Part shown: positions 4,138 to 25,362 of the stretch, in pieces | How the letters are laid out: the number at the start of each line of letters is the position of its first letter | Numbering within the stretch: position 1 is the stretch's first letter | Virus record (IMG/VR): IMGVR_UViG_3300045135_001024 | Span: 1 to 25,941 of that record | DNA: 25,941 nt | Source of the DNA: a virus | Reading direction: 5' to 3' (one strand) | The notes under the pieces: generated by a model | Databases searched by the model: none | Seen by the model: the letters and a program-made list of their open reading frames with translations, nothing else | Told to the model about the DNA's origin: nothing | Program-made: the position numbers and the translations under genes

Positions 4138-7100
4138 TGGCAAATATTCAAAGAAATTTTATAAGAGGCCGTATGAACAAAAGCCTTGATGAAAGGCTTT
4201 TACCAAATGGTGAATATATTGACGCATTAAATGTAAGACTTGGTTCTACCGAGGACTCTGAATATGGTTCGGTAGAAAATGCAAAAGGTAACACTGGGCT
4301 AACAACTATTATGTTTGATGGAGTTGAGCTTAGTAATAACGCTAGATGTATAGGTGCTTATGAAGATGGGGCTAATGAAACCATTTACTGGTTTATACAC
4401 GACCCAGCTTTTACTTTGGGAAACACAAGCAAGCTTGACCTAATTGTTTCTTATAATACCACCAATAACTCTACAACCTACCATGTAATAAGTCTTGACG
4501 ATGGCGGTGGTATAAATACTACTTTAAACTTTAGCCCATATCACTTAATTACTGGAGTTAATCTTATTGATAACTCTCTTTTGTTTTTTACGGATAACCT
4601 TAATCCACCAAGAGTAATAAATGTAAATAGAAGATACGGAGCTCCTACCAACAACCTTGATGGGTTTACTGCGGAATCATTGATGGTTATAAAAAGACCA
4701 CCGGTTGCCGCTCCGACAATTCAAACTTTTAATGTAGTAGGGCAGGAGGATGATTACTTAGAGGAGCGGTTTATTGCTTTTGCGTATAGATATAAGTATG
4801 CAGACAATCAATATTCAGCTACTTCTCAGTTTAGTGAATATGCTTTTAATCCTTCAACTTTTTCATTTAGCTATAATAGTTATTTGAATGAAGGAATGAA
4901 GAATACCAAAAATGCGGCGATTATAACTTTCAATTCAGGAGGTTCGCTCGTAGAGGGTATCCAGTTGCTTTTCAAAGAATCTACCACAAACAATATTAAA
5001 GTCATAGAGTATTTAGATAAATCTAATTTAGGATACTCTAATGACACAGATTACACTTATACGTTTGATAACAGTAAGATATTTACCTTACTTCCAGACT
5101 CAGAGCTTTTAAGATTATATGACAATGTACCTATCATAGCTAAAGCCCAAACTATAATGGGCAATAGAGTTGTCTATGGAAACTATAAAGAGGGCTATGA
5201 TTTAAAAGACAAGTTTGGTAATGATATAAAATTAGAGTTTGAGGCAGATTTAAATAGCACTCAAATTGCTACTTCTGAGCTTGTAGATACTACAGGAGCG
5301 GGATACTATACCATAGGGCCAACGCCAGTTAATGTAAATAATGCTATAATATACTTTGATTTATCAAATCAAAACGGAACAACCTTAGAACTTACTGCTG
5401 GCTCAACTATTTCTTTAGATTTCACTATTGCTCATAGTCAGTTTACTGATAACACGCCATCAGCTACAACTTCACAGACCAGTATATTATTTGAATATAT
5501 ACTTCCTGTAGACTTTAATAATGTATATTCATTAGCTACAAGCACAGATTTTATTGAAAAGGTTGGTACTGCATCAAACATACAGCCAGTGTCAACTGCT
5601 TGCGATGGAGCTACACTAACAGATATAATAAATTGTGCGCTTCCTTCTACGTTAGGAACATACACAAAAACTGCAAGTGGTATTACTGCAACAGGGCAGC
5701 CTATTGAAATTATATCGTCTCCAGCAAGCAATACTATTGGACTTCAGCTTACAGCTATGCAGTATGTAGATGGAGTTAATAATGCTTATGAGTTTTACGA
5801 GGTTCAAACAGCTACAGCATTTTTTAGCAATCTTGATAATCCAAGAAGCTTACATAGTAATAGAGGATATGAAGTAGGTATAGTTTATATGGATAGTTTC
5901 GGGCGCTCATCTACCGCTCTTGTAAGTCCAGATAATACTGTAGAAATACCATGTCAAAACTCTATTGATAAAAATGAAATAAGAGTAACAATACCAACTC
6001 AGCAGTTAGCTCCAAGTTGGGCAACAAGATATAAGTTCGTATTAAAACCATACGAATCTACATATGACACAATATACACTAGCATATATTTTCAAGACCC
6101 TGATAGCAATGCCACATACTTTTTATTAGAAGGTGAAAACGCTAATAAGGTAGAAGAGGGAGATAGATACTTTGTAAAGTCTGATAGCTCAGGACCAGTG
6201 CTAAGATGTGTTGAAGCTACTGTATTAGAAAAAGAAACTAAAGCAGCAGACTTTATTACTCCAGTAAGTGGAGCGGCAGTTCCGTCAGGGACATATATGA
6301 AAATTAATCCAAATAATTTTTCTACTACTAGAGAGGACAATGCTATTGTAAGTCCAGGCGTATTAGATGACCAAACCAGTTCTGGAGGAGATTTTCCATT
6401 TGTTAAATATCCACTTAATCTTGACCCCGTAAGTCCTAGCACAACATATACAGATTATTCAGTCCCTTCTGGAAGTAGAGTTGTTATATCTATAAGACAA
6501 GAAAGATTAGGTACTGGGGATGGAGATAGAAATTGTGAAAGAAGGATAAATACTATTGACCTAGAGCTTATATCTTCACAGGATTATAATAATATTTCTG
6601 ATTTCTTTTATGGTGATAATGTGTCTACTGTATTTACAGAAAGAGCTGTAACTGAAGTAGGAGGTGATGGCGACCCTATTGTCAACACATGGCAATCAGC
6701 TATATCAGGAGCTTCAGACCCTACTATAAGTGATATAAACACTTCAGAAACCACCAACTACTATAGAACTTACAGAAACACAACAAGCAATCAGTTGTTT
6801 TTATTAGCTACTGGAACTGAAATGTGTAGTGGGGTTATTAATGCAAACAAAAGACGTTCAAGTGTAAGTGTAGAAATTCAAGTTTACAGAACAGATTCTG
6901 TTATAACATTTGAAACACAGCCTACTGATGCACTATCAAATGTTTGGTATGAAAACCACTTATCTTTTCCTATTGATACAGATGGTATGCACAGTGGTAA
7001 TGTGCAAAATCAAACCTCTGGTCAATCAGCGATTATTGATACAGAGTTCTCAAACTGTTACACTTTTGGAAATGGTGTAGAGAGCTACAAGATGTTAGAC

Positions 7101-9728
7101 TCTATAACAGGTAAAACATTAAATCTTGGAGAGCGTGTTACATCTACATCTAATATGGACTATAAGCAGGAGCATAGATTTGCTGATTTGACTTATAGTG
7201 GTGTATATAACGATGAGACGAACGTAAATAAACTAAATGAGTTCAACCTAGGGCTGGCTAATTTTAAGCCATTAGAAGAGTCCTATGGGCCTGTACAGTT
7301 ATTAGATGGTAGAAAAACAGATATTCTTACCCTACAAGAAGATAAAATATCTTATGTTTTAGCAGGTAAAAATTTACTTAGTGATGCAACTGGTGGCGGA
7401 GCGGTCACATCTGTCCCTGAAGTATTGGGAACGCAGATAGCTAGACTAGAAGAATATGGTATTAGTGAAAACCCTGAGAGTTATGCATCCTATGGCCCTA
7501 ATAGATATTTTACCGATGCCAAGCGCGGAGCGGTAATAAATCTAATTGGTGGTGCGTATAATAACGAGCAGCTTCAAGTTATATCAGAGGCTGGAATGCG
7601 CTCATGGTTTAGAGATTTATTTATAGATACTTTCCAAACGCAAAAGCTAGGAGGATTTGACCCTTACATGAATGAATATGTACTACATTCAAATGTACAG
7701 TTGCCTCCAACAGATGATGAATGTTTGCCTTGTGATACAACAAAAAGCATCGTAATAGAGCCTAATACAACATTTACATATTGCGTGGATGTTGGCGATT
7801 TATTAGGGCTGGTTGATATTGATTATGAAATACCTTTTGATGGGTTCGCCAATGTAGTTACTGAAACAAATTCAAATGTAATAACGGAAGCGTTTTCTGA
7901 TGAAATAGTTCTTGAGGCACAAACAAGCTCAACTTATTATACAATAACAGCAACATACAATGGAGTATCTCACAGCACTGGCCCAGTAAATCAGAGCGGC
8001 ACATTAACATTTAATAAAAACAGTGTTAATACCACCACAGTTGAAATTACTGTTACTCAAGATAGCACTACTTCAGACACCATTGATATAACAACTGGAT
8101 GTCCACAAGCACAAGAAATAACAATTTACAATGTAGCTGTTACAAGTAATTCAGACGCTGGAGAGTTTATTACTAATCAGTACAGATGGACTGACGGAAC
8201 ATTTACATCTCCGCTACATTCAGAAAGAATACAGTTTTCTTCAAGCAATACAAACCCAATAGTATCTCAGTACAATTTTGTAGCTGGATTCCAAGGCGCA
8301 GGAGTTATACCTGGAGATGCATCTATAGTATCAATAATAAGTAGAAAACAAAGTTTTGACAATTTTGTTTTTGATGCATCTAAAAATAAATTAAAATACC
8401 TAAGAACAAATACTTTCTATGGTAATAATGGAAGTGATATAAATAGTTTGTTGGCAGCAGCAGCTGATACGACAGTTGTAAGTGAAACCAATCCAAATCA
8501 ATTTAGCGGTAGCTTTACATTGCCATCAGGCGGACAGTTCTTGTATTTAATATGGGATTACAGAAAACCATCTAGTGCAAACTTATGTTTTTCTACTACA
8601 AGTACATCAGATGCTTGTACTGGATGCACATTCCCAACACCTACCCCTACACCAACTCCGACACCAGCTCCTGTATCTTACAGATGGTTGATTGAGTCTG
8701 GTACTGGTAGCGCAACAAGTCCATCTACTTGTCCATTTGCAGCTACACCTATTTATAGTGCATCTAGTTCATTTGCTACAACAACAACTGGCAGCACATT
8801 ATTCTATACAGATGCCTCCTTAACAACATTATTCCAAGGAGGAGATAACTACTATGGTGTAAGAGAGCCTAATAAAGGATATGGTATTTGTGAAGGGATA
8901 TTTAGAATGACAGATATAGGTACAGTTTCTAATATTGATACTGCTGGTGTGTGTAATGTTACACCAACTCCGACTCCAACTCCGACTCCAACTCCGACTC
9001 CAACTCCGACTCCAACACCGACACCTACTCCTACTCCTACTCCAACGCCGACTCCAACACCGACTCCAACACCGACACCTACGCCTACACCTAGTCCTGC
9101 TGCTGTTTGGCAAATAAATTATCAATCTGGTGCTGGTGGAGGATGGAGCACTATATCTCAATCTTGTGGTCAAAATACATTTGGAGATACATATGTTGAG
9201 TTAGTAGGCTCAACCACTGGATATTTAGATACTCAAGCTAAATTAGATACGGCTTATGCTGGAGGGGAAACAGTGTATGTATACAACTCCGATTTAAGTC
9301 AGTTTGTAGGAGGCAACTCATATTATGGAATTGCTATAAGTGTTGACGTGCTTGGAACAGCTCCTGGAATAACAGTACAAATTGATTCAGTAGGAAGATT
9401 AGTTGATTTAGGAACTTCATTCTACTCAAGCTGTTTGCAAGAATTTACAATGACAGCTCTAAATACTTATTGGAGTACTTACTTAGATGCTTGTAACAAT
9501 GGACCTTCTGCTGCAACTCAAACATATTATCACGATGGTTCTTCTTTATGTTTAGCTGCTTCTGATGTTGTATATATGGATAGCACAAAGAAAGAAACGA
9601 TAGCCGATGCTATAGCTACTACTGGTAAAATTTGGTATCAAGGCTCTTCATGTGGAACTGGCGGTGCTGGTCAAGCATTAGAATTTGATAGCTCAGGCGG
9701 ATATGTAAATGGAATAGGAAATTGTTAA
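4137..9728 (+). CDS. Giant muzzle/tail-stabilisation-type protein with Pro-Thr linkers and C-terminal fibre modules
   Basis: An 1863-residue virion protein. It opens with [27 protein letters not shown], a signature I associate with the muzzle (stabilisation) protein of crAss-like and related phages, which closes the distal tail. The core ends near residue 1190 with [41 protein letters not shown] and [14 protein letters not shown], all typical of that family. Residues about 1195-1490 look like Ig-like or beta-sandwich material ([29 protein letters not shown]). After a Cys pair (CTGC) comes a 13-residue Pro-Thr linker (1500-1512), a beta module to 1607, a 45-residue P(TP)22-type linker (1610-1654, one Ser), a second related module to Cys1766, and a final module ending in Cys1863. 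The C-terminal additions are probably surface-exposed fibre or adhesin elements. The next gene encodes the same kind of modules 9 bp downstream. Confidence 0.72.
8634..8672 (+). repeat. Short Pro-Thr linker repeat
   Basis: Thirteen codons alternate Pro and Thr (ending Pro-Ala-Pro) and separate the CTGC end of the muzzle core from the first C-terminal module. All four Pro codons are used, so the amino-acid pattern is kept despite DNA divergence. Confidence 0.9.
8964..9098 (+). repeat. Long Pro-Thr linker with exact 12-bp tandem repeats
   Basis: Forty-five codons encode strictly alternating Pro and Thr (one Ser). The first 48 bp (8964-9011) are four exact copies of CCAACTCCGACT; the remainder is a degenerate 6-bp pattern. 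Local GC is clearly higher than in the neighbouring AT-rich sequence. Unit lengths are multiples of 6, so gain or loss of units keeps the reading frame. Confidence 0.95.
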
Positions 9729-9737
9729 AAATAAAAA

Positions 9738-10547
9738 ATGGCAACACTAGGAACATATTATTTTGATACTGCAAGCTTTGCAAATGCAACTACTGTTTAT
9801 GACGATGCGAATTTAACTACAGTATCAGCTAATGGGTGGTATTCAGACTCGTCTATAGTTAGAAAGCAGGTATCAGGGGTATTATTGGCAGCTCAAAGTT
9901 GTGCTGTGCCTACTCCAACTCCTACACCTACACCCACGCCTACTCCCACACCTAGTCCAACGCCTACACCTAGTCCCAGTCCAACGCCTACACCAAGTCC
10001 AAGCCCTACGCCTAGTCCAACGCCAGGGCCTACGCCTAGTCCTAGTCCAACTCCGAGCCCTAGTCCAACTCCTAGTCCAGCTCCGACTTATGACTATTTA
10101 TTACAACAATGTTCAACTGGACAGCAATACAATGTTTCATTACCACAACAAGTAAGCTATGGAACTTCTGTAGAATATGCGGGTCAATGTTGGGAGGTAT
10201 ATGGTCCAAATACAGGAACGCCACAAGCGATATCTCCTCAAGGATACTATTCAAACTGTACAGCTTGTGCAGGAACGCCTAGTCCTAGTCCAACACCTAG
10301 CCCTTCACCTAGTCCTACACCGACACCTAGCCCAACTTGCTATGCTATTTATTTACAAAAAAGTACTTCTGTTTGCTCGGGAACTTATAATTCTTATTTC
10401 TTTGACACCTCTTCTTTAAGCACAGCTACAATTGCTTTTGCTAACAGTGGATGTAGCACATATGCAACGCCAGGGTATTATACGCAAGGTGCTTCATATA
10501 GATATTGGAATGGCTCAAGTTTCACTTTATCAGGAAGTTGCTATTAA
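9738..10547 (+). CDS. Modular Pro-Thr/Pro-Ser fibre protein
   Basis: A 269-residue probable virion surface protein, not assignable to a named family. Three small beta-type modules are joined by two Pro-rich linkers. Residues 1-57 ([23 protein letters not shown], ending in Cys) form the first module, followed by a 59-residue PT/PS linker (58-116). The second module, residues 117-180, carries LLQQC...GQCWEVYG...NCTAC. Then come a 19-residue PS/PT linker (181-199) and a C-terminal module ending GSCY. The second module is clearly related to the N-terminus of the 610-residue protein at 13510 (RLQSC...GNCWKVYG...GCTLC). Modules tend to begin or end at Cys, suggesting intramodule disulfides or metal sites. 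It lies 9 bp after the muzzle-type gene and just before the hydroxylase, so it is a plausible substrate for the modifying enzymes. Confidence 0.7.
9909..10085 (+). repeat. Pro-Thr/Pro-Ser linker repeat
   Basis: Fifty-nine codons with Pro at nearly every second position and Thr or Ser between, one Gly and one Ala. The DNA is an irregular mix of CCTAGTCCAACG-like 12-mers. Ser codons here are AGT/AGC, which cannot arise from ACN by wobble changes, so the Ser content reflects separate units. Confidence 0.92.
10278..10334 (+). repeat. Pro-Ser/Pro-Thr linker repeat
   Basis: Nineteen codons of alternating Pro with Ser or Thr separate the CWEVYG module from the C-terminal module of the same protein. 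It shares CCTAGTCCTAGT-type units with the longer linker upstream. Confidence 0.9.
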
Positions 10548-10569
10548 TTTGTATCTTTATACAAATTAA
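10544..10569 (+). promoter_or_regulatory. Perfect 11-bp palindrome with degenerate promoter element before the oxygenase gene
   Basis: TTAATTTGTAT and ATACAAATTAA form a perfect inverted repeat around the loop CTTT, 5 bp before the ATG at 10575, and the left arm includes the stop codon of the preceding gene. Inside it, TATCTTTA (10552-10559) differs from the Bacteroidota -7 element TAnnTTTG only at the last base. No well-placed TTG was found upstream. It could be an operator over a weak promoter or an mRNA hairpin affecting expression of the enzyme genes. No T tract follows, so a classical terminator is unlikely. Confidence 0.55.
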
Positions 10570-10574
10570 ATCTA

Positions 10575-11720
10575 ATGGTTGAAATACAGAATTTTCTCAC
10601 TCAAGATGAGTGCAGTGGACTAATTCAAATTATAGAGAAAAACCACCAACCTTCTACAGTGGTTTCGGGTTCTGGAGGAACTTCTATAGATGACAAAAGT
10701 CGAACGTCAAGCACTTGTAATTTAAGTCACACCGACCCCTTAGTAAAAAGTGTTTTCTCAAAAATAGCAAACCATCTAGGTTTGGATGAAAAGAGAGGTG
10801 AAAACATTCAAGGTCAGCTCTATGAGGTAGGTCAATACTTTAGACCTCATCACGATTTTTTTAGTGGTCCTGCTTATAATGAGCATTGTTTGCATAGCGG
10901 AAACAGAACGCACACCTTGATGATTTATTTAAATGATGACTTTGAGGGTGGTGGAACTAACTTTCCAAAGCTTAATACCATAACTCAGCCAGAGACAGGG
11001 AAAGCTGTAACTTGGGAGAATATGATAGATGGCCAAACTCAAGAGGACACTATGCACGAGGGTATGCCAGTAACGTCAGGGAAAAAATATATTATTACAT
11101 CGTGGTGGAGAGAGCGCGAATGGGGAGCGGCTAAGCCTGCTCCGCTCAAAGTAGTTCCTAATATACCTAAGCTTACTGATATTGGTTTTGATGTTGTAAA
11201 AGTGCCAGACCATATATGGGGTATTATTCAGGATTCATACCATATATTAAAAGACAGAACTGTAGAAGAAGACTTTCCAGGTAAAGAAACATTCATACAA
11301 GGAGGTAGTCAACTGATGTCGTATGATAATATACCACACATAAGAGGCATGATACACAATCAGCTTTTGCCGATACACCGAGAGTTTGCAGGAGTTGATA
11401 TAGAGCCTACATTTGTGTATGGTATAAGGTCGTACCTAAGAGGAGCAACGCTTGCTATGCACACAGACAGAATAGAAACTCATCATGTTTCATCTATAAT
11501 TATAGTTGATAAAGATTTAAAGTGTGGATGTCAAAGCAGAGAGTTTGGAGACGATTGGCCGCTAGATATCAAAGGGCATGATGGCAACTCTTATAAGGTT
11601 TATGCAGAGCCTGGAGATATGATACTTTATGAATCTGCATTATGCGAGCACGGAAGAACAGAGCCTTTTCAAGGGACTTTTTATAGAAACTTTTTTATGC
11701 ACTATAAAATTGTTCAGTGA
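10575..11720 (+). CDS. Two-domain 2-oxoglutarate/Fe(II) oxygenase, prolyl 4-hydroxylase type
   Basis: A 381-residue enzyme predicted to hydroxylate its substrate using O2, 2-oxoglutarate and Fe(II). The N-terminal domain (about 1-182) has the full prolyl 4-hydroxylase pattern: YEVGQYFRPHHDFF with iron ligands His92 and Asp94, RTHTLMIYLNDDFEGGGTNFP, the distal ligand His161 in HEGMPV, and the 2-oxoglutarate-binding Lys171 ten residues later in SGKKYI. The C-terminal domain (about 195-381) looks like a second, different 2OG oxygenase: YGIRSYLRGATLAMHTDRIETHH with His296 and Asp298, then GDMILYESALCEHGR with His359, and Arg361 or Arg371 as candidate 2-oxoglutarate contact. Both sites appear intact. 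It is flanked by proteins with Pro-Thr linkers, overlaps the radical SAM gene by 4 bp (GTGA), and precedes a hydroxyproline-type glycosyltransferase, so Pro in the linkers is the natural candidate substrate (inference). Confidence 0.87.
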   Translation: MVEIQNFLTQDECSGLIQIIEKNHQPSTVVSGSGGTSIDDKSRTSSTCNLSHTDPLVKSVFSKIANHLGLDEKRGENIQGQLYEVGQYFRPHHDFFSGPAYNEHCLHSGNRTHTLMIYLNDDFEGGGTNFPKLNTITQPETGKAVTWENMIDGQTQEDTMHEGMPVTSGKKYIITSWWREREWGAAKPAPLKVVPNIPKLTDIGFDVVKVPDHIWGIIQDSYHILKDRTVEEDFPGKETFIQGGSQLMSYDNIPHIRGMIHNQLLPIHREFAGVDIEPTFVYGIRSYLRGATLAMHTDRIETHHVSSIIIVDKDLKCGCQSREFGDDWPLDIKGHDGNSYKVYAEPGDMILYESALCEHGRTEPFQGTFYRNFFMHYKIVQ

Positions 11721-12625
11721 TAAATTTTATACAAATAGACCCTAATGGTTTGTGCAACGCAGGATGTTGGTTTTGCCCAGTTTCAATTCACGGGAATCCT
11801 AGCGAGCATAGAAGTCAAATGCCACCAGAGCTTTATGAATCTATTATAAAGCAAATAGTAGAATTAAAAGGCGAGCTTGTAAATCCAAGGCTGCATTTTG
11901 TATATGCCTCTCATTATAATGAGGTGTTATTGTACAGGCATTTTGAGGAAATGTTACAGATACTACAAAAGTATAATCTTACATTATGCTTGCTAACTAA
12001 TGGTGTTCCCTTGACTCCAAATAAAATAGACCTTATAAATAAATATCCTGGAGTGGTTTCTCAAATAGCAATCAACGCACCAGTATACCAAAGGGAGTTG
12101 TTTGAAAAAAGAACAGGTATGCGTGAGAAGTTATTTGAAACACTAATCAATAACATTTATTATGCTCAAAACAATCTCATAAATAAAAATATATTGTTGT
12201 TGCAAATCAATGGTATTGACAACAGGTCTAATATTATCAAGCTAAAAAACTTTCCAGAGCTGCAACCGAACGAACTGGAAACGCAAACTAGAATAGCAAA
12301 GCAATTATTCCCAGGAATAAGCGTTACGACTCAATGGAATCTTATTGACAGAGCTGGATTATTGCAAGATGTTATGGGGAATCCTCTACCTGAAGGCAAG
12401 GTTATAGGATGTTCTTCTAAAAGAGATACAGAGTGGCTTCATGTTACACCAAAAGGTGAAGTGTTTTTATGTTGTAATGATTACAATATGGACTATGTAT
12501 TTGGAGATTTGAATAAACAAACTTTAAAAGAAATCTGGACAGGGCAAAAGCGACAAGAGGTTATGCAAAAAGCTTTTGGAGAAATATGTACATCTTGTTC
12601 AGTTGCAATTTTTAATCATGAATGA
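11717..12625 (+). CDS. Radical SAM enzyme with SPASM-like C-terminus
   Basis: A 302-residue enzyme of the radical S-adenosylmethionine superfamily. The N-terminus holds the cluster motif C13-x3-C17-x2-C20 (NGLCNAGCWFCPV). The C-terminal part has a SPASM-type arrangement: Cys232, then LHVTPKGEVFLCCND with Cys252/253, FGDLNKQTLKEIW, and Cys291/Cys294 (ICTSC), which probably bind an auxiliary Fe-S cluster. SPASM enzymes commonly modify peptides or proteins, but some act on sugars or cofactors, and the substrate cannot be read from sequence. The start is GTG at 11717, overlapping the oxygenase stop as GTGA, which fixes the start just before the cluster motif and suggests coupled translation. The end overlaps the glycosyltransferase by 8 bp. 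The tight order argues that all three enzymes act on one target. Confidence 0.85.
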   Translation: MINFIQIDPNGLCNAGCWFCPVSIHGNPSEHRSQMPPELYESIIKQIVELKGELVNPRLHFVYASHYNEVLLYRHFEEMLQILQKYNLTLCLLTNGVPLTPNKIDLINKYPGVVSQIAINAPVYQRELFEKRTGMREKLFETLINNIYYAQNNLINKNILLLQINGIDNRSNIIKLKNFPELQPNELETQTRIAKQLFPGISVTTQWNLIDRAGLLQDVMGNPLPEGKVIGCSSKRDTEWLHVTPKGEVFLCCNDYNMDYVFGDLNKQTLKEIWTGQKRQEVMQKAFGEICTSCSVAIFNHE

Positions 12626-13487
12626 AAGTATATTTGTTAATATAGCATCGTATAAGGATAGTGATTTAATACCAACCATAGACGATTTATATACAAGAGC
12701 CGCTCAGCCAGAAAGAGTTTTTGTTGGCGTTTTTTTACAAGACACACCTCAAGCAACAATAGATGTGCTAAGTATATTGAAGGGGCATCCTTACAGAAAC
12801 AATATGTTCTTACAGACTATTGATGCTAATAAAGCTAAAGGTTGTGGATGGGCAAGAAATGTAATATCAAAACATCTATATGGTGGGCAGGATTACTTTA
12901 TGTGTGTTGATTCGCACTCAAGGTTTTTAAATAATTGGGATACCACTTATATAGACATATATAAAAACGCTCCAGAGAATGCAGTAATAAGTGTGTTTCC
13001 ACAATCTTTTGATTTTAATCAGTCATACGAGCAGTATACCAAAAGAAATATAGCTACTATATACACGCCTCACGAACTTCCTTGGACATCTGCTTTTAAT
13101 AAACCACACTGTCAAAGACATCCTAAGATGGCCTATGAAAGAGTAAATCAAATATCTGGAGGTAATATTTTTGGAGATAAGAGATTGGCAAAAGCTATAA
13201 CATTAGACGATTATACATTTAAACATAATCAAGAACAAGAGATATACTCACTACTTATATATCTACATGGTTTAGATTTATATGCAATACCACAAAATAT
13301 AGTGTGGCATAAATACATAACTACAGATACTTACAGGGAATTATTTCAACCTAAAGACATAGAATATCGTTTGAATTTTCTACACGATTTAGAGTACAAA
13401 CAAAAAGACAGAACTATAAAAGACTGGGTCGCTTTGATACAAGCTGATTGTGATGACTGTAAAAAGACAAAGCAATTAAATTCGTAA
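12618..13487 (+). CDS. GT60-like (GNT1/Skp1-type) glycosyltransferase
   Basis: A 289-residue glycosyltransferase. The frame is open from an upstream ATG at 12576, but ATG 12618 gives MNESIFVNIASYKD, where the domain begins, and a short overlap with the previous gene. Family features, from memory of the GlcNAc/GNT1 family (CAZy GT60): IFVNIASYKDSDLIPTIDDL at the start, PERVFVGVFLQ (residues 31-41), GCGWARN (75-81), the DxD-like Asp98-Ser-His100 in CVDSHSRF followed by NNWD, QISGGNIFGD, and LYAIPQNIVWHKY near the end. Characterised members transfer alpha-GlcNAc from UDP-GlcNAc to hydroxyproline of Dictyostelium Skp1 or to Thr of Trypanosoma mucins. No signal peptide or membrane segment is seen, so it is cytosolic. 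Neighbouring Pro-Thr linkers offer both acceptor types. Donor and acceptor specificity are inferred. Confidence 0.78.
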   Translation: MNESIFVNIASYKDSDLIPTIDDLYTRAAQPERVFVGVFLQDTPQATIDVLSILKGHPYRNNMFLQTIDANKAKGCGWARNVISKHLYGGQDYFMCVDSHSRFLNNWDTTYIDIYKNAPENAVISVFPQSFDFNQSYEQYTKRNIATIYTPHELPWTSAFNKPHCQRHPKMAYERVNQISGGNIFGDKRLAKAITLDDYTFKHNQEQEIYSLLIYLHGLDLYAIPQNIVWHKYITTDTYRELFQPKDIEYRLNFLHDLEYKQKDRTIKDWVALIQADCDDCKKTKQLNS

Positions 13488-13492
13488 ATTTG
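13485..13492 (+). promoter_or_regulatory. Bacteroidota -7 promoter element
   Basis: TAAATTTG matches TAnnTTTG and is followed by TAGTTAAAT, the same flank as at 15349. It overlaps the glycosyltransferase stop and lies 18 bp before the ATG at 13510. No TTG was found at a proper -33 distance, so strength is uncertain. Confidence 0.5.
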
Positions 13493-13509
13493 TAGTTAAA
13501 TAATAACCT

Positions 13510-15342
13510 ATGTCGTTTTACTATAGGCTACAAAGCTGCGATAATTCAAGTGTTTTTGTTGATGCGTCTTTTACCACGCAACAATCCATCAACCATACTT
13601 ACCAAATATATGGTCTTGCCCCTGGACAAGGAGTTGGTAATTGTTGGAAAGTATATGGTATCGCCTCATCAGGACAATTTATAACTATAGCAGCAGACTA
13701 TGGTATTAATGGGTGTACGCTTTGTAACACTCCCACCCCTACACCTACACCAGTTACTTCATATGCTTGGCAGTTTAATGCGGTACAGGGTAATGGTTCG
13801 TTTGTTAAGCCAACCTCCTGCGTAAACTGTCCTGTAACAGTATACTCTGACGTAAATTCGTATAGTGGTGTAACCTGTGGAACACAGCACTTTTGGGTAG
13901 ACGCTAATCTTACTACACCATTTAATGGTAGTAATCAATTTTATATAGCCACCCCAGGTTCGTCTCCAGCAACAGGAACGGGAATGTTGCTTATTGAGCC
14001 TGACGGAACTGTAACTAATAAGTACGACTGTAGTGGAACGAATATATGCGGAGGAGTTCCTACACCTACACCCACGCCTACACCCACGCCTACACCCACC
14101 CCGACACCTACACCCACACCTACACCGATTCCTGTAACTCCTGACTATTGTCTGAGCGGCACGAATGCCACAACAATTCAGGCTATTGGTTCGGGCAATG
14201 TATTTGTCTTTGGCGGTAATTATGGTATATATGGTACAGGAACTGGTATATTTGTTTTAACTGGTGTCCCATCGGCGCATCCTATTGCTATCCAAAACTT
14301 TGGCAAAACAAGTTTGATAGAATATGATGGACAGTATAGCGCAGGAACTAAGACAGGATTAGACGGAAATGTATATGAATATTTTTATGGAGATGTAACT
14401 ATCACAGTTACTGGCAATTATGGCACACTAAGTTATGAGTGTTATAACCATGGATATATGGGGGGTCAGAACAACTTGATGTTTGATAATGCCACTTGTC
14501 CTAACTTACAGCCTCCTATCATACCTCCTCAAGGAGACCCTACTTTGCTTTATACTCTTACTTATAGTGACAGTGTAAAAGGATGGCCTTCATTCTACTC
14601 TTACTATCCAGACTGGACAATAGGTATGAATAATTATTTCTACAGCTTCAAGGGTGGTAATTTATACAGACACAATACCAACGAGGTTAGAAATAATTTT
14701 TACAATGTACAGCACAACTCCACTATAACAAGTGTATTTAATGAGCAGCCACTAGAGAATAAGTTATTTAAAACCATAAACTTAGAATCAGACAGCTCAT
14801 GGTCTGTTACATTAGACAGTGATATACAAACAGGAGCTACCATAGATAGTACTTGGTTTGAGAAGAAAGAGGGAGCTTGGTTTGCATATATAAGAAACAA
14901 CGGAACACAGCCAGCAGGTTCTGATGAATATTCGATGCGCTCTGTGAATGGTATCGGTAGAAGTTCTTCGGTAAGTATTGTAGGCACAAGTACTATAATA
15001 AACTTTGCAACCAATCCATTAATAGAGATAGGAAGTGATATAGCGGTAGGAGATATAGTTTATTACGCTCCGCCTCCTTACACTTCTATAGAGATGGCGG
15101 GGCAAGTAATAGCTATAAATATAGACTTGCAGAACGCCACTAACAATATAGTTATAGACAACTCAATCTCTGGAGCGGTAACTATACCAATTCAAGATGG
15201 GTTTATAATGTACATTAAAAATCAGCAGGCTGAATCTAACGGAGTGTTAGGTCATTACTGCCAATTTACAATAACAAATACAGATACTACAGCTACTGAG
15301 TTATTCGCAGTAGAGTCGGAAGTAATGAAAAGCTATCCCTAA
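13510..15342 (+). CDS. Modular tail/fibre protein with Pro-Thr linkers and a cupredoxin-like domain
   Basis: A 610-residue probable virion protein. Residues 1-73 repeat the CWxVYG module of the 269-residue protein (RLQSC, GNCWKVYG, GCTLC). A 7-residue PT linker (75-81) leads to a module (82-183) related to those in the 1863-residue protein (FWVDANLTTPFNG). A 25-residue PT linker (184-208) precedes a beta domain, about 211-330, with His257 and the motif YEC311YNH314GYM317GG. That is the His...Cys-x2-His-x2-Met ligand set of type 1 copper (plastocyanin-like) sites. The C-terminal half (YSDSVKGWPSFYSYYPDW, NNYFYSFKGGNLYRHN, NKLFKTINLESDSSW, FEKKEGAWFAYIRN) resembles a domain common in large tail structural proteins of marine and Bacteroidota phages, so the protein is very likely virion-associated. 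It has its own putative promoter and sits directly after the glycosyltransferase. Confidence 0.75.
   Translation: MSFYYRLQSCDNSSVFVDASFTTQQSINHTYQIYGLAPGQGVGNCWKVYGIASSGQFITIAADYGINGCTLCNTPTPTPTPVTSYAWQFNAVQGNGSFVKPTSCVNCPVTVYSDVNSYSGVTCGTQHFWVDANLTTPFNGSNQFYIATPGSSPATGTGMLLIEPDGTVTNKYDCSGTNICGGVPTPTPTPTPTPTPTPTPTPTPTPIPVTPDYCLSGTNATTIQAIGSGNVFVFGGNYGIYGTGTGIFVLTGVPSAHPIAIQNFGKTSLIEYDGQYSAGTKTGLDGNVYEYFYGDVTITVTGNYGTLSYECYNHGYMGGQNNLMFDNATCPNLQPPIIPPQGDPTLLYTLTYSDSVKGWPSFYSYYPDWTIGMNNYFYSFKGGNLYRHNTNEVRNNFYNVQHNSTITSVFNEQPLENKLFKTINLESDSSWSVTLDSDIQTGATIDSTWFEKKEGAWFAYIRNNGTQPAGSDEYSMRSVNGIGRSSSVSIVGTSTIINFATNPLIEIGSDIAVGDIVYYAPPPYTSIEMAGQVIAINIDLQNATNNIVIDNSISGAVTIPIQDGFIMYIKNQQAESNGVLGHYCQFTITNTDTTATELFAVESEVMKSYP
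13732..13752 (+). repeat. Short Pro-Thr linker
   Basis: Seven codons of alternating Pro and Thr join the Cys-rich first module to the second module of the 610-residue protein. Confidence 0.85.
14059..14133 (+). repeat. Pro-Thr linker repeat
   Basis: Twenty-five codons of alternating Pro and Thr (one Ile near the end). The DNA is built largely from CCTACACCCACG-like 12-mers, a different unit from the CCAACTCCGACT unit of the 1863-residue gene, so the two arrays expanded separately or have diverged. Confidence 0.92.
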
Positions 15343-15363: not shown

Positions 15364-15774
15364 ATGAAATTAAATATTAGACCACTTGAAGAGTCTGACT
15401 ATGAGCAGATTTTAGTAGGTTGGTGGAAAGATTGGAAATGGGAACCTCCTTTAAAAGATTTTCTGCCAGACGATGCTAAGAGTGGACTGATAGTTTATGA
15501 TGATAATACCCCTGTTTGCGCAGGATTTATATATATGACAAATTCAAAAGTAGCTTGGGTGGATTGGATTATATCTAATAAAAATTACACTGATAAAACA
15601 GGAAGAAAGGCGTCTTTGTCTTTATTAATAGAGACTCTTACTAATGCAGCAAAAAATGCTGGAAGTAAATTCACTTATGCCCTAATAAAGCATGATGGTT
15701 TAATTAAAACATATGAAGAGCTGGGATATATACAAGGGGATAGTTATAACAAGGAAATGATAAAAGTATTATAG
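15364..15774 (+). CDS. GNAT-family N-acetyltransferase
   Basis: A 136-residue protein with GNAT layout: N-terminal MKLNIRPLEESDYEQIL, a WWKDWKWEPP segment, strand GLIVYDDNTPVCAGFIYM, strand WVDWIISNKNY, a basic acetyl-CoA-loop region DKTGRKASLSLLIETL (about 77-91) and the terminal YEELGYIQGD. From memory, near-identical short acetyltransferases recur in the virion operons of uncultured marine phages beside internal proteins. The substrate is unknown; virion proteins, host proteins or small molecules are all possible. It begins a putative transcription unit (promoter element 7 bp upstream) and ends one base before the next ATG. Confidence 0.75.
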   Translation: MKLNIRPLEESDYEQILVGWWKDWKWEPPLKDFLPDDAKSGLIVYDDNTPVCAGFIYMTNSKVAWVDWIISNKNYTDKTGRKASLSLLIETLTNAAKNAGSKFTYALIKHDGLIKTYEELGYIQGDSYNKEMIKVL

Positions 15775-24265: not shown

Positions 24266-24646
24266 CTAGGGTCTGACATACTTGAATAGTTTTTTATCAT
24301 CAAAGGATAGTATCAGCTCGCCTTCTTCTGACCACAAAGCTCTACCCACCAACCCTTCAATGGGCAGGTAATATATACCATCTATACATGACCAAATCAT
24401 TACAGCGTGCAGGCGCTTGTCTCTAAGCTTGATAATCTTTCGAGCTTTAACTGTCAATGGAAATGAATGTTTCATTTCAGTATCGAGTACCTTAACTTCT
24501 GCGTACCCTATAACCGATTTGTTTTCACCCAGTATTCTAAAGTCTACATCATCAGGGCTAAGCTTCTTATAGCTACCTCCCAGTCTTCTCAGGTAAAGCT
24601 CTATAGCTTGCTTCTCTTTAGTTATATCTTGGTCTTGTTCAAACAT
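24266..24646 (-). CDS. PD-(D/E)XK nuclease-like protein
   Basis: A 126-residue protein with the pattern of a minimal PD-(D/E)XK nuclease: a helix with Glu16 (QAIELYLRRLGG), acidic Asp33/Asp35 in DDVDFRI, then a strand carrying Glu50-x-Lys52 in GYAEVKVL, followed by a beta/alpha region (HAVMIWSCIDGIYYLP). Spacing between the Asp and the ExK is about 15 residues, as in small Holliday-junction-resolvase or VRR-NUC-type folds. It probably cuts or processes phage DNA. The ATG overlaps the stop of the metallophosphoesterase by one base (TAATG), so the two are co-translated. The exact subfamily is not recognised. Confidence 0.6.
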   Translation of the reverse strand: MFEQDQDITKEKQAIELYLRRLGGSYKKLSPDDVDFRILGENKSVIGYAEVKVLDTEMKHSFPLTVKARKIIKLRDKRLHAVMIWSCIDGIYYLPIEGLVGRALWSEEGELILSFDDKKLFKYVRP

Positions 24647-25362
24647 TATAGCTCCATCAAACAGTTAATAGCTGTGTGTCCTCCAAGGACAACACCACAC
24701 CCTATAGCTTGCTTCTTGAAATGTTTTGCGTATGCCGCAGCATAAGAGCTGCCATCAATACCACAACCTACCTGCATACCAAAGATACGGAAGTTTCTAC
24801 CCACCATCCACTCAGTATACGCTTGAGTGTGTATATGGCCCTGGACAGTAGACATCATATCGTTCTTGGCTTTTGTTCGGGCCGTTCCGCCTTCCCCGTG
24901 AATGTACTGGACATTATCATACACAACACGCTCAACCCAATTCCACTGAGTACCAAGCACATCGTTATAAGATTTAATCCACATACTAGGAATGTCGGAG
25001 GTCTGTGCTTTACGCATTATCATTCTATCGTGGTTTCCAATGACTACATCTGCAACTGGAAAAGCTTCTTTCCATTTAGACACAACCTCAATCGCGTGAT
25101 ACAACTCATCCGCTCCACCCATACCATCGCTTGATGTTTCGTGGTAACTGGTGTAGTGATTGTCAATTATATCACCAATAAATACTACTTGATTGCATAG
25201 ATGTTTAGCGTAGGTATGCTGACAGAACTCTAAATACCCTTCTAGTTCAAACGGAGCATGGATATCCCCGATGACTAAGATTCGCCTTTCGTCTGTTGTC
25301 AGATTATCGTAGGCTATTTTCTTGTCTCCTTTAAGCCTAGGTCTGAAGTCTTTATAACTCAT
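24646..25362 (-). CDS. Calcineurin-like metallophosphoesterase
   Basis: A 238-residue hydrolase with the complete dinuclear metal signature: GDIHAP (Asp33, His35), GDIIDN (Asp64), GNHD (Asn110, His111), then His155 in YIHGEGG and GHIH (His176, His178). It would hydrolyse phosphodiesters or phosphomonoesters. Phage members of this superfamily lie in DNA-metabolism clusters and act on nucleotides, nucleic acid ends or phosphoproteins. The substrate here is unknown. The partner PD-(D/E)XK gene follows with a 1-base overlap, suggesting joint action on DNA. The start overlaps the preceding small gene by 11 bp. Confidence 0.82.
   Translation of the reverse strand: MSYKDFRPRLKGDKKIAYDNLTTDERRILVIGDIHAPFELEGYLEFCQHTYAKHLCNQVVFIGDIIDNHYTSYHETSSDGMGGADELYHAIEVVSKWKEAFPVADVVIGNHDRMIMRKAQTSDIPSMWIKSYNDVLGTQWNWVERVVYDNVQYIHGEGGTARTKAKNDMMSTVQGHIHTQAYTEWMVGRNFRIFGMQVGCGIDGSSYAAAYAKHFKKQAIGCGVVLGGHTAINCLMEL

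Follow-up and report, generated by a model that had tools for sequence, protein, structure and literature searches.

A phage enzyme cassette that may hydroxylate and glycosylate the proline-rich linkers of its own tail-tip proteins

Why should a phage carry, amid its virion genes, an oxygenase related to prolyl 4-hydroxylases (P4H), a radical SAM enzyme and a glycosyltransferase of the GT60 type? This question is raised by the virus record IMGVR_UViG_3300045135_001024, a stretch of 25,941 nt (the 25.9-kb window), in which the genes of these three enzymes are flanked by genes for tail proteins with long runs of alternating proline residues (Table 1). Two of these proteins are called STAB (the 1863-aa tail protein) and MUZ (the 610-aa muzzle-type protein) in the following, and surveyed loci are given as L numbers. 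A first-pass annotation of the window had proposed Pro-rich linkers of the phage itself as the target of the enzymes, and the comparison with related phages supports this proposal well. The linkers are suggested as substrate by their joint presence and absence with the enzymes, by the replacement of one enzyme with an HPAT-like protein in relatives and by a linker composition that tracks the transferase. On these grounds, it appears quite probable that the enzymes constitute a phage-encoded modification pathway for tail-tip proteins, directed at their X-Pro linkers (X = T, S, V or A).

In such a pathway, the P4H-type domain 1 of the oxygenase would hydroxylate the prolines of the alternating X-Pro repeats. 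In the window phage, the GT60-type enzyme would then transfer N-acetylhexosamine, most likely to Thr/Ser of the hydroxylated linker, perhaps to hydroxyproline, or to both. Where an HPAT-like or O-fucosyl-type enzyme takes its place in relatives, the linkers are poor in Thr/Ser, which would suggest hydroxyproline as acceptor. The radical SAM enzyme might conceivably modify the linker or the sugar further. Small modules at the tail tip would thereby be separated by glycosylated spacers that are stiff and resist proteases, and the phage tail would probably bear a coat of plant- or mucin-like sugars added by the virus's own enzymes.

Co-occurrence of enzymes and linkers

For the survey, viral contigs were scanned with the oxygenase, the muzzle protein, the glycosyltransferase, the radical SAM enzyme and an HPAT-like relative, and the window and named phages were added. 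This yielded 443 loci, which formed 240 groups once near-identical DNA was removed. The GT60 scan with a single sequence gave one near-identical contig only, and alignment-based scans were needed to find relatives. Single-linkage lineage clustering joined most contigs via shared genes, so that lineage counts are approximate. The profile for O-fucosyltransferase (O-FucT) also caught GT60 proteins via GT60/O-FucT fusions, and its labels on GT60 proteins were disregarded.

All 44 groups that possess STAB, MUZ and the oxygenase have Pro-rich linkers, whereas tail-protein linkers occur in only two of the 60 groups with STAB and MUZ but without the oxygenase (L188 and L206, both GT60-bearing). Three further oxygenase-less groups of this kind have PA/PK-rich segments, which are confined to a downstream protein. 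The scan with the muzzle protein alone selects for neither enzymes nor linkers; it returned 52 groups without either, nine with oxygenase, glycosyltransferase and linkers, and two with glycosyltransferase and linkers only. In a second phage group, linkers are present in 12 of 14 members with oxygenase and glycosyltransferase versus none of eight without the oxygenase, and relatives of the oxygenase-less kind carry the radical SAM enzyme and GT60. The first-pass annotation had stated that a wide occurrence of the enzyme trio in phages lacking such linkers would speak against its proposal. Linkers accompany the radical SAM enzyme in 23 of the 29 loci that have the oxygenase and in none of the 25 that lack it, an outcome in favor of the proposal. 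Taken together, the radical SAM, STAB/MUZ and second-group counts indicate that the linkers track the oxygenase and not GT60 or the radical SAM enzyme as such. The cassette also stands beside linkers in phages that have no STAB or MUZ gene (L026, L261, L266, L267, L276, L298 and L396-L415), and this recurrence is better evidence than the large tables.

It could be argued that the linkers are ordinary flexible spacers and that their co-occurrence with the enzymes reflects chance or low-complexity bias, since PT-rich linkers are generally known to be common in secreted bacterial proteins. However, tail linkers are essentially missing from the cassette-less relatives (muzzle scan: 52 of 52 groups). 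The survey and the muzzle scan thus largely exclude this explanation, which we regard as very improbable.

The relatives share a common layout that consists of STAB, the linker protein, the tandem oxygenase, a variable enzyme slot and MUZ. The slot is occupied by the radical SAM enzyme together with GT60, by a 277-aa protein of the HPAT family (PF23452), by GT32 (PF04488), by a GT34-like protein or by an O-FucT (PF10250), the last sometimes accompanied by a carbamoyltransferase and GDP-sugar enzymes, fusions included. One of these slot enzymes is encoded directly 3' of the oxygenase in 84 of 99 distinct tandem oxygenases, most frequently with a 4-bp overlap; of the other 15, three lie at contig ends and 12 have a different next gene. 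The HPAT-like family is distant from its namesake: the enzyme of L079 (13122-13952) matches PF23452 with E=5.5e-8 (33 bits, cut-off 23.9), and at a threshold of 0.01 the profile matches three of eight diverse members. A role of the enzyme trio in defence or metabolism was considered and rejected, as in close relatives it always lies within the tail module. A broader reading is that phages run a modular and exchangeable hydroxyproline/threonine O-glycosylation, a counterpart of plant extensin/AGP and of protist Skp1/mucin glycosylation, in which one P4H is combined with a GT60, HPAT-like, GT32 or O-FucT enzyme on tail X-Pro repeats that evolve to match the transferase; we lean slightly towards this general view.

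Several loci show unusual arrangements of the same genes. O-FucT is fused to carbamoyltransferase and to GT60 in single open reading frames (ORFs) (L053, 3214-5775; L057, 8317-10248). A protein of 349 aa in L267 (from position 6942) contains near-perfect (SPVP)n repeats that account for about 177 Pro-rich residues, and its gene adjoins an HPAT-like gene and single-domain P4H genes. L420, L427 and L429 combine a radical SAM homolog with five to seven consecutive P4H-like genes, in L420 next to a protein with (PPFF)n-type repeats; this resembles a hydroxylase array that has expanded and serves another kind of repeat.

Linker composition and the acceptor residue

In oxygenase-bearing loci, consecutive prolines stand two positions apart in 5550 of 7867 cases, and most of the residues alternating with them are T, V, S or A. 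A collagen-like substrate was rejected, since the linkers are X-Pro dipeptides and not G-X-Y repeats. Which residue alternates with proline depends on the slot: the linkers of loci with the radical SAM enzyme and GT60 are the richest in Thr/Ser and almost free of Val (T+S 0.96 and V 0.00 in the window), those of HPAT and GT34-like loci tolerate much Val, and those of O-FucT loci are rich in Val/Ala. For a comparison that takes relatedness into account, phages were paired along non-overlapping paths of the muzzle tree and the median over random pairings was taken. The GT60 member of the pair had the higher Thr/Ser content in 12 of 13 independent pairs (p=0.003) and the radical SAM member in 7 of 7 (p=0.016). 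The GT60 effect is also seen in muzzle-embedded linkers alone (9:1, p=0.02) and is not an effect of GC content. Although it falls short of proof, this co-variation of Thr/Ser with GT60 is strong, and it points to the linkers as substrate and to a Thr/Ser requirement of GT60.

For the GT60 enzyme, Thr/Ser or both kinds of residue are more likely acceptors than hydroxyproline alone, while for the Val/Ala-rich linkers of other phages hydroxyproline is a plausible acceptor. Two sub-cases of the proposed pathway can be distinguished here. The oxygenase and GT60 might carry out two parallel modifications, the former stiffening polyproline-II linkers and the latter glycosylating Thr/Ser directly, with no sugar linked to hydroxyproline. 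Apart from the composition of the GT60/radical SAM loci, this is suggested by L123, L188 and L206, which pair GT60 with (TP)n linkers and in which no oxygenase was found, and by the T. cruzi enzyme of the GT60 family, which adds N-acetylglucosamine (GlcNAc) to Thr (PMC6939170, PMC3769586). It is countered by P4H and GT60 occurring without the radical SAM enzyme beside Ala-rich linkers (L057 and L309, T+S 0.38-0.43) and by Gnt1, a GT60 member that requires hydroxyproline (PMC6939170). We hold these parallel modifications to be a serious possibility, though one that falls a little short of being favored.

Alternatively, GT60 might add N-acetylhexosamine to the hydroxyproline made by the oxygenase, as Gnt1 does on Skp1. 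The enzyme pair matches that of Dictyostelium and Toxoplasma (PMC6939170), the slot is filled elsewhere by an HPAT-like hydroxyproline transferase family, and GT60 occurs with linkers of down to 23-43% Thr/Ser in L046, L053 and L057. However, O-FucT domains present in L053 and L057 could explain a use of hydroxyproline there, Thr/Ser is enriched wherever GT60 stands in for another transferase, and the L123/L188/L206 clade has GT60 and linkers with no oxygenase found, so that a strict chain of this type seems doubtful. The Skp1 hydroxyproline enzyme and the T. cruzi enzyme acting on Thr are both members of GT60 (PMC6939170, PMC3769586), and the first-pass annotation had drawn on the two as analogies. 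The trypanosomal half fits the Thr/Ser-rich linkers of the window, whereas the Skp1/Gnt1 half, with GlcNAc on hydroxyproline, is weaker.

A number of observations weigh against a pathway that acts on the linkers. In the STAB/MUZ phages, only about 2-4 changes of the traits fall on the muzzle tree and the tree test was not significant there, which means that the 44 of 44 table counts relatives. The linkers flank the cassette, and enzymes and linkers may therefore move as one DNA block. Furthermore, 13 P4H groups have no linker in the contig DNA surveyed, and the clade of L123, L188 and L206 combines GT60 and long (TP)n linkers with no oxygenase match in the two contigs checked, which may be incomplete; these close relatives, which also carry tandem GT32-type domains, are the informative exception to the rule that linkers go with P4H. 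Concerning composition, the GT60 effect is weaker in the linkers of the large tail protein (7:3), the radical SAM effect loses significance when muzzle-embedded or large-protein linkers are considered by themselves, and a stricter binary tree test of the Thr/Ser trait gave p values of about 0.06-0.07. The Thr/Ser trait was moreover picked after inspection of the data, and five cassette types were tested.

These points bear on the explanation that the enzymes target something else, for instance a host surface polysaccharide for superinfection exclusion, a capsule or a host protein, and that the linkers became their neighbors by block exchange of a variable tail region. In its favor, the muzzle tree shows few independent gains, glycosyltransferase clusters of jumbo phages and cyanophages have been interpreted as systems that modify the capsule (PMC7824862), other phages commonly have GT60 genes with neither P4H nor linkers, and a bacterial P4H modifies EF-Tu (by the title of PDB entry 5v7y). 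Nevertheless, loci with the radical SAM enzyme but without P4H have linkers in none of 25 cases, even with GT60 adjacent, which means that the linkers go with P4H rather than with glycosyltransferase clusters. In addition, the composition of muzzle-embedded linkers tracks the glycosyltransferase between close relatives, and the same enzymes adjoin linkers in phages without STAB and MUZ genes. We consider a different target unlikely.

Enzymes and tail proteins of the window

The oxygenase gene encodes two tandem 2-oxoglutarate (2OG) Fe(II) oxygenase domains with a complete H-x-D...H triad in each. Domain 1 (aa 2-183) is of the P4H type; its iron triad and the Lys for 2OG (H92, D94, H161 and K171) are unchanged across 35 aligned sequences. 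Domain 2 (aa 198-380) has a second 2OG fold with H296, D298 and H359. The structural model (pLDDT 90) has a pTM of 0.51, hence the mutual placement of the two domains is uncertain. Its top PDB match is 3gze (TMt 0.76), an algal P4H whose structure contains a (Ser-Pro)5 peptide, which is an alternating X-Pro repeat resembling the phage linkers. The prolyl 4-hydroxylase type assigned in the first-pass annotation thus agrees with the Pfam, PDB and fold matches, with the correction that there are two 2OG domains and that the P4H type refers to the first. The best match of domain 2 among annotated phages is a stand-alone gene of cyanophage S-SCSM1 (38% identity), which adjoins a GDP-fucose protein O-fucosyltransferase. 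The tandem form was not found in the bacterial genomes searched, where relatives are single-domain only.

Table 1 Features of the window (all positions refer to the 25,941-nt stretch)
Feature	Position	Strand	Matches and remarks
STAB, large tail/virion protein, 1863 aa	4137..9728	+	phrog_14478 E=1.3e-233 over N-terminal ~1480 aa
(PT)n linker 1	8613..8693	+	
(PT)n linker 2	8943..9119	+	longest of five, ~23 dipeptides
Small linker-dominated protein, 269 aa	9738..10547	+	phrog_15511 E=5e-16
(PT/PS)n linker 3	9888..10106	+	
(PS/PT)n linker 4	10257..10355	+	
Tandem 2OG-Fe(II) oxygenase	10575..11720	+	PF13640 E=5.5e-16; best PDB sequence matches prolyl 4-hydroxylases, E to 7e-24
Radical SAM enzyme with C-terminal SPASM/twitch-like domain	11717..12625	+	Pfam Radical_SAM and SPASM, E about 1e-13, over cut-off
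PF11397/GT60-type glycosyltransferase, GT-A fold	12618..13487	+	PF11397 'GlcNAc' E=1.6e-36
MUZ, muzzle-type tail protein with linker, 610 aa	13510..15342	+	PF25729 E=5.2e-19, phrog_38031 E=1e-93
(PT)n linker 5	14038..14160	+	
crAss muzzle C-terminal domain PF25729, aa 393-464 of MUZ	14686..14901	+	Pfam

The other two enzymes of the first-pass annotation, a radical SAM/SPASM enzyme and a GT60-like glycosyltransferase, were recovered by Pfam. The radical SAM enzyme has the motif C13-x3-C17-x2-C20, and C232, C252, C253, C291 and C294 are invariant in six aligned sequences. BtrN is its sole sequence relative in the PDB, and none of the NCBIfam functions scored above the cut-off. The glycosyltransferase reaches 127 bits with PF11397 (cut-off 21) and contains the motif D98-S-H100-x-R-F, in which D98 and H100 are invariant in 32 aligned sequences. 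A search of solved structures by sequence gave nothing useful for this enzyme; the GT-A model (pLDDT 92.9) is nearest to the mucin-type polypeptide N-acetylgalactosamine-transferases. The predicted 4- and 8-bp gene overlaps are real: the radical SAM gene overlaps the oxygenase gene by 4 bp, and the glycosyltransferase gene, with the ATG at 12618 taken as its start, overlaps the radical SAM gene by 8 bp (stop at 12625). P4H and GT60 are hence encoded together in one operon, and this is repeated in relatives. PF11397/GT60 genes are also widespread in other phage contigs (L315-L368), often in tandem and mostly without nearby P4H or linkers.

The three expected ORFs of 1863, 269 and 610 aa with Pro-rich runs are present and carry linkers at five sites, with the C-terminal tail of STAB being composed of linkers and small modules. 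The term tail fibre, however, had to be given up: because MUZ ends in PF25729 and STAB belongs to phrog_14478 (virion structural), both are probably tail-tip proteins of the muzzle region. Relatives of STAB in Cellulophaga and Flavobacterium phages are annotated as structural proteins. Another domain of MUZ (14125-14520, aa ~206-337) recurs with about 50% identity in another phage set (L130-L161). Neither a Pfam nor a convincing PDB match was found for it; its pattern SAHPIAIQ ... YECYNHGYMGG recalls the His-Cys-His-Met set of copper-binding cupredoxins.

Known systems, cultured phages and neighboring genes

To our knowledge, hydroxyproline-linked glycosylation is known only from eukaryotes. 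In the extensins and arabinogalactan proteins (AGPs) of plants, P4H and HPAT act in hydroxyproline O-glycosylation, and AP, SP, TP and VP dipeptides are typical of AGP glycomodules, as in the phage linkers. The resemblance extends to the P4H and, in relatives, to the HPAT-like gene of the slot. Unlike plants, the window lacks an HPAT and belongs to a prokaryotic virus, and enzymes for later extension were identified only in the phage loci with O-FucT and carbamoyltransferase. The initiation of T. cruzi mucins by UDP-GlcNAc:polypeptide alpha-GlcNAc-transferase shares with the window a GT60 enzyme and Thr/Pro-rich acceptors. There, however, a Golgi enzyme acts on secreted mucins, whereas the phage has a coupled oxygenase and radical SAM enzyme and acceptors in tail proteins; we know of no P4H in the mucin pathway. 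Glycosylation of virions by phage-encoded glycosyltransferases has been reported for mycobacteriophages, so that a phage enzyme acting on its own virion proteins would have a parallel, but the transferases differ from that of the window and no hydroxylase or Pro-rich repeat substrate is known to us from that system.

The Skp1 pathway of Dictyostelium and Toxoplasma, in which P4H is followed by the GT60 enzyme Gnt1 (PMC6939170), likewise unites a P4H-type oxygenase and a GT60-family transferase. It modifies one Pro of Skp1, whereas the putative phage substrate is formed by tandem X-Pro repeats of virion proteins; moreover, the phage cassette adds a radical SAM enzyme, exchanges its glycosyltransferase and may use Thr/Ser as acceptor. 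A virus-encoded P4H that matches the window oxygenase by sequence and fold is vCPH of chlorella virus PBCV-1 (PDB 5c5t), but vCPH is a single-domain enzyme of a eukaryotic virus, is named collagen prolyl hydroxylase and has no coupled transferase shown. No phage hydroxyproline-glycosylation pathway was found in the open-access papers searched. The passages found in a 2026 phage-annotation paper (PMC12774648) describe prolyl-hydroxylase-like 2OG oxygenases as widespread in marine phages and do not propose such a pathway.

If our reading is true, there is a hydroxyproline O-glycosylation pathway in bacterial viruses, and a glycosylated tail-tip structure would be revealed. That such enzyme pairs, among them an HPAT-like family member, occur as exchangeable cassettes in numerous environmental phages would bear on the origin of these enzymes, and the role of at least some of the abundant and unexplained 2OG oxygenase genes of marine phages would become testable. 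The cassette might also provide small soluble enzymes for writing hydroxyproline or Thr glycans onto simple repeat peptides in bacteria.

Among the cultured phages, S-SCSM1 is rich in 2OG genes, two of which flank an O-FucT, and it also has carbamoyltransferase and GDP-fucose genes; two of its proteins with a virion annotation, QFG06275.1 and QFG06481.1, contain long X-Pro runs. This association is genome-wide and not adjacent, and it is weaker than in the relatives of the window. Five other phages matched via a single 2OG gene have no X-Pro runs, and no adjacent glycosyltransferase was seen in the stretch read. XacN1 possesses GT60, and one of its large ORFs contains a single short PT run; no P4H match was found in this phage.

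In gene order, the window encodes a capsid protein, small tail/head proteins, STAB, the linker protein and the oxygenase; the radical SAM enzyme, the glycosyltransferase, MUZ, an acetyltransferase-like gene and large internal proteins follow. The acetyltransferase gene (at 15364) was rejected as a member of the cassette, since it is found in cassette-less relatives too. The same layout is present at 95-97% identity in a second contig and recurs in many relatives. The nearest annotated phages are the spring-water podovirus MW202828 and phages of Cellulophaga and Flavobacterium, and the host is therefore probably a Bacteroidota bacterium. Of the Crassvirales traits, the window phage shows the muzzle C-terminal domain and related tail genes, with homologs in Cellulophaga phages; on this one feature it is not assigned to the order. 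Opposite to the virion module, the minus strand carries a metallophosphoesterase gene (24646-25362; phrog_221, E=1e-49) and a small gene (24266-24646).

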